Source: Acinetobacter sp. ANC 4862 (lineage in GTDB: Bacteria > Pseudomonadota > Gammaproteobacteria > Pseudomonadales > Moraxellaceae). Taken from it: 64,000 nt of DNA. The notes below the pieces were generated by a model. It had not been told where the DNA came from. It saw only the letters and a list, made by a program, of their open reading frames with translations, and made no database searches. Every line of letters begins with the position of its first letter. Within the stretch, counting starts at the first letter, position 1. The stretch spans positions 1 through 64,000 of the forward strand of contig NZ_SJXH01000006.1 of the NCBI RefSeq assembly GCF_004336635.1, written 5' to 3'. Made by a program: the position numbers and the translations under genes. Below, one piece after another: positions 59,248-62,378 of this stretch.

Positions 59248-60168
59248 TTAAGCAGAATAATACTGATTACGCTTTTGCGAGAATTTAGCTAATTGCTTTA
59301 AAAAGCCTTCAAAATAACTTTTCTCTTTCTCTTCGGTTCGATAGCCCGCATACAGAGTACGGCGCAAGCCTGTAGAAGAGACACAATCTAAACGGCGTGA
59401 AGTCACCCAGCCTTTTTGCTCATATTCATTCACCACCCAATCTGGAAGTGCCGCAATACCTCGACCACTCGCCACCAACTGAATCAGCATCTGAGTTAAA
59501 TCTGTGGTGCGTATGTGCTTCGGTTGGATATTTGCAGGAATAAACAGTTTCGCCATGATATCTAAACGGTGCTTATCGACCGGATAAGTAATCAGGGTTT
59601 CATCTGCCAACTTTTGAACGGTAATACGTTCGGCACGTACCAATGGATGGGTATTCGATAAAACCAGACGTGATTCATATTCAAAAATCGGGAAATATTC
59701 GATGCCTTTTAACGCAATCGGATCCGCGGTAATCAACAGGTCAAATTCCGCATTTTGCAAAAGTTCATGTGGATTGGATTCAAAACCTGAAGCAAAGTCC
59801 AGATCCACATCTGGATATAAATGACGATATTGGTTCAGCAAAGGCATCAACCAGTCAAAACAACTATGACATTCTGATGAGAAAATAATACGCCCGGTTT
59901 GACCATGTACAATGCGGGTAATATCGGTTTGGGTAATCTGAATTTGTGGCAAGACATCATCAGCCAATTTGAGTAAACGCTGTCCAACATTAGAAAAAGT
60001 CACCGGACGGCTACGGCGATTCACCACCTCTACCCCATACCAATGATCCAGTTCTTTCAGTTGATGAGAAATTGCTGAGGGCGTTAAACACAAATCGTTG
60101 GCTGCAGCCACCAATGAACCATGCTCACGCAAGGCAGTTAAGGTTTTTAAATGACGAATTTCTAACAT
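59248..60168 (-). CDS. metR: LysR-type regulator MetR
   Basis: 306 residues. N-terminal helix-turn-helix MLEIRHLKTLTALREHGSLV, then AAANDLCLTPSAISHQLKEL, and the effector domain with SSECHSCFDWLMPLLNQYR, typical of MetR. MetR senses homocysteine and activates methionine genes. It is divergent from metE, the usual arrangement, and a perfect MetR box lies between. In this genome, however, metE is cut short, so MetR may now act only elsewhere. The ATG at 60168 is used; no good ribosome site precedes it. Confidence 0.92.
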   Translation of the reverse strand: MLEIRHLKTLTALREHGSLVAAANDLCLTPSAISHQLKELDHWYGVEVVNRRSRPVTFSNVGQRLLKLADDVLPQIQITQTDITRIVHGQTGRIIFSSECHSCFDWLMPLLNQYRHLYPDVDLDFASGFESNPHELLQNAEFDLLITADPIALKGIEYFPIFEYESRLVLSNTHPLVRAERITVQKLADETLITYPVDKHRLDIMAKLFIPANIQPKHIRTTDLTQMLIQLVASGRGIAALPDWVVNEYEQKGWVTSRRLDCVSSTGLRRTLYAGYRTEEKEKSYFEGFLKQLAKFSQKRNQYYSA

Positions 60169-60253: not shown

Positions 60254-60300
60254 TTCTACTTAAAGACAAACACGCAGATAAATTTTCAAAAGAAAAATAA

Positions 60301-60313
60301 TGAATTAAATTCA
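60301..60313. promoter_or_regulatory. MetR-binding box
   Basis: TGAATTAAATTCA fits the MetR consensus TGAA-N5-TTCA exactly. It lies about 90 bases before the metE start, in the divergent metR-metE spacer, where activator sites are expected. Confidence 0.7.
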
Positions 60314-60402
60314 ATATACCATAAAATTAATTAGTTTATTTCATGTTTAATTTTATTCGATGATGTTTTCAACAAAAAGAATCTCCTTGCAGGAAAAACA
60401 TC

Positions 60403-60600
60403 ATGACGATTACTTCTCACATTCTTGGCTATCCACGTGTTGGGGCAAAGCGTGAACTTAAATTTGCTTGCGAGTCATATCGGAAAGGTGAATCTACCCA
60501 AGTCGAATTTTTGACTAAAGCCCAAACAGTTACAGTTGAAGCAAACAACTGGCAAGCACAGATTAAAGATAGCCCATTTTTAGGGGTTATTTTTATATGA
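60403..60600 (+). pseudogene. metE: metE truncated after about 60 codons
   Basis: TITSHILGYPRVGAKRELKF, then ACESYRKGESTQVEFLTKAQ and ANNWQAQIKDSPFL, follow the N-terminus of cobalamin-independent methionine synthase, normally about 750 residues. After codon 60 (near 60582) the match ends, and five foreign codons lead to a stop. The zinc site and the catalytic C-terminal domain are absent, so no activity is possible. AGGAAAAAC precedes the ATG. Methionine synthesis would have to use another enzyme, such as MetH. Confidence 0.85.
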
Positions 60601-60603
60601 GAT

Positions 60604-60632
60604 AAAAAATCACCTATTATGAAAAGTGATAA
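60604..60632 (-). terminator. Probable terminator of the YDY-repeat gene
   Basis: ATCAC and GTGAT form a short stem on the minus strand, followed by TTTTTT, overlapping the end of the gene. Confidence 0.45.
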
Positions 60633-60979
60633 TATTGCCCGGTACCAAAGTCATAAAAACTTAGGCTAGAACCTGAAATCGTAATCTCGAAATAACTCGA
60701 ATTTCCATAATGATAACCTTCGTATTTTTTTACACCTTTCTTCTTTAAACTGATAAATTCACTATGACCATAATCATATAAATTGAACTCTCGACCGGTA
60801 TGTCGCCCCTCAAACATGACTGATCGCTGATAATCATAAAGTTTGGCTTCATGTTGATTTACATCGCCGCTTATTTGAGGATATGTGCTTTCGTTATAAT
60901 CATAAATATTAGATTTAGTGTTTCCAAATTCCAGTTTGGCTACCACTAAAGCGAGTGCCGCTCTCTGATACTGTTTCAT
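60617..60979 (-). CDS. YDY-repeat protein, 120 residues, unknown function
   Basis: After a short N-terminus (MKQYQRAALALVVAKLEFGN), the protein is made of about five repeats of 18-25 residues with an aromatic signature: IYDYNES, LYDYQRS, LYDYGHS, YHYGNSS and FYDFGTG. The regular tyrosine-aspartate turns suggest a small all-beta repeat fold. There is no clear signal peptide or membrane helix. AGGGA sits seven bases upstream of the ATG. It lies directly at the metE breakpoint, opposite in strand, so it probably came with the rearrangement that cut metE. Confidence 0.6.
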   Translation of the reverse strand: MKQYQRAALALVVAKLEFGNTKSNIYDYNESTYPQISGDVNQHEAKLYDYQRSVMFEGRHTGREFNLYDYGHSEFISLKKKGVKKYEGYHYGNSSYFEITISGSSLSFYDFGTGQYYHFS

Positions 60980-61430
60980 AAATTTTCCCTTTTATTTTTT
61001 TAATTGTTTTGAGTGATAGAAAAGTCATCCTATTTTCTATTTTAAAACTTATTCAAATTGTTGTTATTCAAAAACAACATAACAAATTATTTTTTCAACT
61101 TAAAGTATTACTTTTATAATGCCTCAAATTTAACTTTAAATAATCTTTCCCACAATCCCCAACTGAGAAATCTAGACCTCTTTAGAACTTTGGTCTTAGC
61201 CTTGCAGGAATTAAAACCAAACTGACTAAGATCTTTCCAAAACCATCTATCTAAAACCCATCAAAAATAAAATAAACAAATATATTTCAATCCGCTAAAA
61301 ATAATAAACCTAACGACATCTGGTTAATATGAATGTTTTTACTATGGCTCGATCAAAGATAAATATTGTATTTACCAGTCCCTTTATATTTAAGCTCAAA
61401 TCATTCATAAATGCAGATTTGAGAGAAAAA
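60980..61430. other. AT-rich spacer before the dioxygenase gene
   Basis: About 450 bases with no supported frame. TATAAT occurs at 61115-61120 on the plus strand with a weak TTTTCA 17 bases upstream, a possible promoter for the dioxygenase with a leader of about 300 bases. No remainder of metE was seen in either direction. Confidence 0.4.
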
Positions 61431-62378
61431 ATGCCCATAAAACTCATATGTGTCTCGCACACGCCGTTACTGGATTTTGCATCTCCTCCTGCAGAGATTG
61501 AAGCCGCTGCACGCGCAACATTTCAAAAACTGGCGGAACAGGTTAAAGCCTATGATCCCACGCTGATTGTGGTCTTTGGTCCAGACCATTTTAATGGCTT
61601 CTTTTATGACCTGATGCCGAGTTTCTGTGTCGGTGTGCGTGCAACTGCTGCGGGTGACTGGAACTATGGACCTGCACCATTGGACGTTCCAGAAGATAAA
61701 GCACTCGGTTTAATTGAACACTGTTTAGATCACGATATTGATATTTCCTATTCCTATCGGATGCAGGCCGATCATGGTTTTACCCAACCACTTGATTTAC
61801 TTTGCGAAGGTCAGCTTAATCGTTATCCGGTGATTCCGGTGTTTATTAATGGCGCTGCTGCACCAATGCCCCGTACCAAACGTGTGATTGAACTAGGTAA
61901 AGTGATTGGTGCATATCTTAAAACCCTAGATGAACGCGTTTTAATTATTGGCTCCGGTGGTTTATCGCATGATCCACCGACACCGCAAATTAGCACAGCA
62001 GCACCCGAAGTTCAGGAATTCTTAATTGCTGGGCGTAACCCGACAGCAGAAGCACGTGAGAACCGTCAATCCAAAGTCATTGCCGTGGGTCAACGCCTTG
62101 CTAGTGGTGACTTATCAGCCGCACTACCATTGAACCCGGAATGGGATAAAGATTTATTACAGCGCTTTAAAAATGCGGATTTTGATTATTTAGCCAACAT
62201 GAGCAATGACGAAATTCGTCGCGATGGCGGACGTGGTGGTCAGGAAATCCGTGCCTGGATTGCAGCTTTCGCAGCACTTTCTGCAAGTGGCGAATATAAT
62301 TCAGAAGTACACTATTATGAACCGATTCAGGAATGGATTGCCGGCATGGGCATGATGACTGCGCAACCCAAAGCATAA
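61431..62378 (+). CDS. Class III extradiol dioxygenase (MhpB-like, 2,3-dihydroxyphenylpropionate 1,2-dioxygenase)
   Basis: 315 residues, the size of E. coli MhpB (314). IKLICVSHTPLLDFASPP, VVFGPDHFNGFFYDLMPSFC and YRMQADHGFTQPLDLL supply the iron ligands and acid-base residues of LigB-type enzymes. IIGSGGLSHDPPTP is also typical. The enzyme opens the ring of 2,3-dihydroxyphenylpropionate meta to the new hydroxyl. None of the usual mhp partners (mhpA, C, D, E, F) is in the window. GAGAG precedes the ATG at 61431; the frame is open 34 codons earlier, but that part is unlike the family. Confidence 0.88.
   Translation: MPIKLICVSHTPLLDFASPPAEIEAAARATFQKLAEQVKAYDPTLIVVFGPDHFNGFFYDLMPSFCVGVRATAAGDWNYGPAPLDVPEDKALGLIEHCLDHDIDISYSYRMQADHGFTQPLDLLCEGQLNRYPVIPVFINGAAAPMPRTKRVIELGKVIGAYLKTLDERVLIIGSGGLSHDPPTPQISTAAPEVQEFLIAGRNPTAEARENRQSKVIAVGQRLASGDLSAALPLNPEWDKDLLQRFKNADFDYLANMSNDEIRRDGGRGGQEIRAWIAAFAALSASGEYNSEVHYYEPIQEWIAGMGMMTAQPKA

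Follow-up and report, generated by a model that had tools for sequence, protein, structure and literature searches.

MetR and a two-site operator outlive metE in Acinetobacter and have probably been turned to the mesX-mesD methionine synthase

In Acinetobacter sp. ANC 4862 metE is reduced to a dead stub, and it is very probable that MetR and the operator beside the stub persist since MetR controls the mesX-mesD-flavin reductase genes and probably its own gene as well. For the genus as a whole we consider it likely that MetR was rewired to switch on the MesD/MesX synthase, which needs oxygen but no folate, in response to homocysteine by way of a fixed two-site operator, freeing metE for repeated loss. 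The locus lies in a window of 64,000 nucleotides (contig NZ_SJXH01000006.1), the whole stretch of DNA analysed here; the draft assembly from which it comes has 72 contigs and totals 3,321,581 bases.

Results

The regulator gene is intact, as the preliminary description of the window had stated. metR occupies 59251-60168 on the minus strand, a frame of 306 aa that by homology encodes the LysR-type homocysteine-responsive regulator, with both the LysR helix-turn-helix (PF00126, HTH_1) and the LysR substrate-binding domain (PF03466, LysR_substrate) above the Pfam cutoffs. With E. coli MetR as query (42% identity) the window protein comes first in its own genome at 228 bits, the next LysR protein scoring 69 bits, and it is orthologous to E. 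coli MetR by the measure of the best match in the genome in a one-way search. MetR is also its top NCBIfam model, at 249 bits against 106 for the runner-up; this score is below the curated NCBI cutoff of 382, which is a threshold for naming and not a biological trait. The dN/dS of metR against the 25 closest of 41 relatives is 0.011-0.030, a range to be read in the knowledge that many of the synonymous distances exceed 1 and are unreliable; as judged from these alignments, it shows metR to be under strong purifying selection.

MetR is present in 175/175 Acinetobacter genomes, each match at E <= 5.3e-170. At the level of sequence homology this contradicts the statement that MetR orthologs are absent from Moraxellaceae, which was based on four genomes studied (Leyn et al. 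2014, PMC4239095). A search of plasmids gave one metR match only, on a replicon of A. cumulans that is designated a plasmid (NZ_CP035936.1, L229; 80% DNA identity) and carries many housekeeping genes and, in the stretch examined, no annotated metE; the same strain has a second metR on its chromosome.

Divergent from metR, across a spacer that holds an ATGAA-N5-TTCAT-like box (60300-60314), metE starts at 60403. Its initiation codon and ribosome site remain, as first described, and its promoter region is likewise still readable. What follows is a stub (60403-60600, plus strand), a 65-aa frame made of metE codons, a deletion scar and a stop at 60598-60600, in which Pfam Meth_synt_1 covers only residues 5-54. 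The deletion junction (60564-60622) was located by blastn and alignment against G106, which has an intact metE, and the close relative G160, and metE is missing from about codon 53 to past its stop. The DNA match with G106 stops at 60563 and resumes at 60623, beyond the metE stop, and that with G160 stops at 60556 and resumes at 60601. As the two matches end and resume there, we place the break at about 60564 with a short scar to about 60600, which is 18 bp earlier than the position of about 60582 given in the preliminary description and leaves about 52 metE codons where 60 had been counted.

A complete metE elsewhere was searched for genome-wide, and neither a second metE nor a further piece of metE was found in the strain's own genome, in which there is no full-length MetE with both Meth_synt domains. 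The draft state of the assembly, with its 72 contigs, could be held to favor an assembly error, a full metE being really present. As nearly all of metE is absent from G160 too, a separate genome whose stub resembles this one and occupies the same site, as the neighbors carry graded remnants of the gene, and as no other metE piece turned up, such an error can practically be discounted.

To the right of the stub, at 60617-60979 on the minus strand, lies a gene for a 120-aa protein of unknown family, without a Pfam or NCBIfam match, that is the right-hand neighbor of metE in G106, where an 83% identical copy stands about 70 bp beyond the intact gene. It is present in 9/18 relative loci (78-94% identical) and, going by its position in these loci, would mark the window site as the old metE locus. 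The protein has recurring YDY/YG motifs. A gene for a LigB-type extradiol dioxygenase (61329-62378, plus strand) also adjoins the old metE site; it occurs in some relatives and is partly deleted in G102, and the 8-kb locus of G106 yielded no copy.

In a survey of 175 Acinetobacter genomes full-length metE (743-788 aa) was found in 14; in one more (G131) the frame runs off a contig end, and eight have fragments. The other 152 genomes gave no metE match at E 0.001, and DNA comparison reveals remnants in some of these. A second set, made up of the 80 best MetR relatives identified by name (79 Acinetobacter and one 'Moraxellaceae bacterium'), has a full metE beside metR at six loci, a fragment at 12 (one at a contig end) and none at 62. 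When the window and 15 relatives were compared by DNA with the G106 gene, the window, G160, G161 and G089 proved to retain only the 5' end of metE, reaching to about codon 89 in G160. Elsewhere the remnants are scattered: codons 1-25, 596-668 and 722 on in G102, 1-40 and 650 on in G127, 1-52 and 97-185 in G011, and 1-23, 444-488 and 688-757 in G036. In G001 and G110 the comparison finds the promoter block and no metE codon. Because the remnants vary and the right-hand neighbor is the same 120-aa gene, metE most likely stood at the window site in an ancestor and would have eroded along different paths since. A quick single-gene metR tree of 42 rows (G157, with no metR in its locus, was dropped from 43) requires at least six changes of the intact-metE label, four of them forced by starred branches; with its open forks and long branches this tree does not separate gain from loss, so the direction, loss of metE, rests on the remnants.

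The preliminary description had allowed that the break might be recent, MetR and its box being leftovers still to decay, and the readable start codon, ribosome site and promoter region of metE fit such an account. We regard it as the weaker alternative and as very improbable: a similar stub is found in G160 and G161, MetR is kept in all 175 genomes against full-length metE in 14, the promoter block survives in G001 and G110 where DNA detects no metE codon, and metR is constrained at the dN/dS of 0.011-0.030, the neutral drift of metR in species without metE not being seen.

The first reading of the locus also held that the strain should depend on another methionine synthase, and a look for metH or a second metE elsewhere bore this out, revealing an intact metH and mesX-mesD in the same genome. 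metH on contig C22 is full length, its open frame encoding 1258 aa and scoring 2137 bits where the cutoff is 1497. The core synthase MesD (342 aa, C8:3632-4660) matches the PRK09121 methionine synthase model at 700 bits (cutoff 392), lacks the N-terminal folate domain and adjoins mesX (C8:4700-5692; PF08908, 541 bits), with a flavin reductase gene at C8:3056-3550 beside them. The sole Meth_synt_1 match in this genome is the metE stub and the sole Meth_synt_2 match is mesD. As metH is full length and mesD, mesX and the flavin reductase gene stand side by side, presumably transcribed as an operon, the strain is expected to make methionine via MetH with B12 and via MesD/MesX otherwise.

MesX was found in 170/175 Acinetobacter genomes. 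In eight species with genomes 99-100% complete (G003, G005, G009, G058, G070, G080, G144 and G148, with 9% contamination in G080) neither metE nor metH is matched, and mesX and MetR are retained in each, so that these species may have no methionine synthase other than MesD/MesX. There are counter-examples to a link between MetR and mesX. G050 (100% complete, one contig) keeps MetR and gives neither a metE nor a mesX match, and the same is true of G117 (91% complete), so mesX cannot explain the retention of MetR in every species.

The exact TGAA-N5-TTCA box reported for the metR-metE spacer is there (TGAATTAAATTCA, 60301-60313). It forms the core of a putative MetR site, ATGAATTAAATTCAA (60300-60314), with 9/10 fixed positions of ATGAA-N5-TTCAT, and is the first half of a paired element whose second putative site, ATTAGTTTATTTCAT (60330-60344), begins 30 bp from the first and is conserved in the alignment of relatives. 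Counting single exact boxes was rejected as evidence, the 13-bp box being too common: the window has six against 3.5 expected (18/100 shuffles reach six), and the genome has 244 against 97 for the backward pattern. In a count in which some loci were misplaced, the single box occurs in 23/71 mesX regions against 10/71 for the backward control, and on account of that control we do not rely on it.

The paired element (sites 30-31 bp apart) is rare. It has three matches in the 3.3 Mb genome, with none for the backward control: one before mesX, one in the metR-metE spacer and one inside a coding frame. The last (C43) was rejected as a regulatory site, as it sits within a frame on the opposite strand. 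As the pattern was drawn from the same loci that it recovers, the evidence is its rarity elsewhere and not its presence at the source loci.

The mesX promoter holds the box of the window together with the paired element, in keeping with the earlier suggestion that retention of MetR implies other targets, of which mesX is the predicted one. About 104 bp before the mesX start stands ATGAATTAAATTCAT, a perfect match to the ATGAA-N5-TTCAT consensus whose inner 13 bases equal the window box at 13/13 positions, and a second conserved site, ATCATTTTTATTCAT, stands 31 bp from it, its equivalent in the window lying at 30 bp. Full ATGAA-N5-TTCAT boxes number 16 in this genome, and 15 of them were examined against mechanically called frames of at least 90 aa. 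Ten lie well within frames, two (L205 and L206) overlap the first codons of a frame, one (L209) abuts a start codon, and the mesX box and L202 are intergenic. L202 (G000 C12:158358), 143 bp ahead of a 452-aa frame of unassigned function, is the sole other full box wholly intergenic besides mesX among the 15.

Across the genus the paired element has 221 matches in 136/175 genomes against 12 for the backward control (the control summed by eye), and 39/175 genomes are without an exact copy. Matches could at first be assigned only where metR or mesX coordinates were among the matches listed, which left 46 over; six of these proved to be mesX promoters and one a flavin reductase promoter. Among the 150 matches listed of the 221, 81+6 thus stand before mesX, 23 before metR and one before the flavin reductase gene, with 39 unassigned. 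The position relative to mesX was followed in 71 regions (our own strain, the 30 best-scoring loci and 40 picked by hand from its own clade, from species without metH, from species with metE and from others). The strict two-site pattern, in which 30-32 bp were allowed, occurs in 62/71, every time at exactly 31 bp between site starts, and a looser pattern in 63/71 against a shuffled mean of 0.005.

The flavin reductase match comes from G099, where a gene like the MesX partner lies apart from mesX (L218, C40:95500-99500) with a paired element of its own. To judge from its sequence this genome is a natural test, since an unlinked gene of the pathway appears to carry its own copy of the element.

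metH was rejected as a MetR target: in 21 metH regions (our own and 20 picked by hand) the paired element was found in 0/21, and one region, that of G042, has a single exact box.

Some further occurrences of these sites were seen. G131 has two mesX genes (L131 and L132), both with the paired element, and G131, G110 and G157 have an extra near-box about 46 bp before mesX. In G016 and G043 a paired match (L225, L226) lies between the same two genes in the two species; the product of one of these genes starts MAINLSKGGNINLSKTAP and is presumably TerD-like.

It is conceivable that the mesX element is bound by some other LysR regulator and resembles the metR spacer by coincidence, as LysR boxes are short and alike and E. 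coli MetR matches 17 proteins of the genome besides metR, 18 in all. The mesX site nonetheless fits the published MetR consensus (PMC4239095), mesX and the metR spacer share 13/13 bases, and in A. baumannii mutants of metR, mesD and mesX share a lung phenotype (PMC12604733), all of which makes another regulator quite improbable next to MetR itself.

Upstream of metR the sites persist also where metE is not full length. The 30 best loci and 20 picked by hand supplied the regions, less that of G157, which at 250 bp did not have the length required. Of the remainder, 42/49 have a site that matches 9/10 or more of the fixed positions against 3.3 in shuffles, as do 36/41 of those without a full-length metE; the exact paired element is found in 25/49 on either strand, with 0 in shuffles searched on one strand. 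In the set of 80 named relatives a site of at least 9/10 positions is present at 65/74 metR loci without a full metE and at 4/6 with it, and the exact paired element at 26/80. A. baylyi has a perfect box at metR and no metE beside it. An alignment of 18 species presents the same picture within one block of DNA: the two sites are conserved and the metE codons that follow them disintegrate.

Autoregulation of metR is known for E. coli, and the simplest reading of these alignments is that the box beside the dead metE is kept through autoregulation of metR. One may go further and suppose that the box is kept for this purpose alone, the main remaining target of MetR being something other than mesX-mesD: the box is part of the promoter of metR itself and stays conserved where metE is missing, G050 keeps MetR without mesX, and among the 15 full boxes examined L202 is intergenic while L205, L206 and L209 stand at the very start of a frame. 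We consider this unlikely in view of the paired element, which recurs before mesX at fixed spacing throughout the genus and also stands before the unlinked flavin reductase gene of G099.

Discussion

Based on these data we propose that MetR controls mesX-mesD and the flavin reductase gene in the following manner. When B12 is scarce MetH would stall and homocysteine would rise, and homocysteine-responsive MetR, occupying a pair of sites spaced 31 bp (about three helical turns), would activate mesX, upon which MesD and MesX would supply methionine independently of both folate and B12. Given B12, MetH would remove homocysteine and mesX would fall silent. With MesX and MesD covering the B12-independent role metE would be redundant, and its erosion along separate paths in Acinetobacter could then follow; the order of these events, like the binding of MetR and its response to homocysteine, we infer from the arrangement of genes and sites.

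Published data on A. baumannii AB5075 are in line with this proposal. In the lung the transposon mutants of metR, ABUW_3197 (labeled 'metE') and ABUW_3198 are depleted, with log2 changes of -2.24, -1.79 and -1.38, a phenotype that many amino-acid genes share in the same table, and the ABUW_3197 mutant has reduced values in the remaining tissues too (-0.80 to -1.18) (PMC12604733). With B12, ABUW_3198, the DUF1852 (MesX) protein, changes by -8.3 log2 and ABUW_3196, a flavin reductase, by -2.5 log2 (PMC12892962). As ABUW_3197 is numbered between these two, it is most likely mesD. That regulator and pathway mutants share a phenotype and that B12 shuts the pathway is as expected if MetR reads homocysteine. 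The whole word 'MetR' is absent from the B12 paper (PMC12892962) and appears once in the lung paper, in its mutant table (PMC12604733), and in the open-licence literature we found no paper linking MetR to MesX/DUF1852 in Acinetobacter, though such a paper may exist outside it.

Systems of this kind are known; new here are the lineage, an operator of two sites at fixed spacing, and metE having been lost repeatedly. The MetR regulon of gamma- and beta-proteobacteria, typified by the E. coli metR-metE divergon, has the same LysR-type regulator, the divergent metE and the ATGAA-N5-TTCAT box that Leyn et al. (2014, PMC4239095) give as the MetR consensus, whereas here the core target metE is a stub and the metH regions are without the paired element in 21/21 cases. 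The same work predicts PF08908-metE2, that is mesX-mesD, as a MetR target in several groups. It also describes Rhodobacterales regulons in which, as here, MetR is kept though metE is outside the regulon; the taxon-specific target is metF there and apparently mesX-mesD here (PMC4239095). The array of mesX, mesD and flavin reductase is that of the MesD/MesX synthase of Price et al. (2021, PMC7857596), as in A. baylyi ACIAD3524-3522. A. baylyi needs mesD and mesX in the absence of B12 and methionine, and the MesD/MesX of other bacteria requires oxygen and neither B12 nor methyl-folate (PMC7857596). We found no regulator named there, and as a whole word 'MetR' occurs 0 times in the main text of that article.

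Our analysis thus offers a candidate regulator of methionine synthesis by MesX/MesD in Acinetobacter, to which an important hospital pathogen belongs, and it presents the decay of metE at many stages next to a conserved operator. It also calls for caution with the label 'metE' in the A. baumannii table, as ABUW_3197 would most likely be mesD. Two published data sets are linked by it, namely the repression of mesX by B12 and the lung defects of metR, mesD and mesX mutants. If the proposed rewiring of MetR is true, it would account both for mesX falling silent with B12 and for the likeness, in the lung, of A. baumannii metR mutants to mutants of mesX and mesD.
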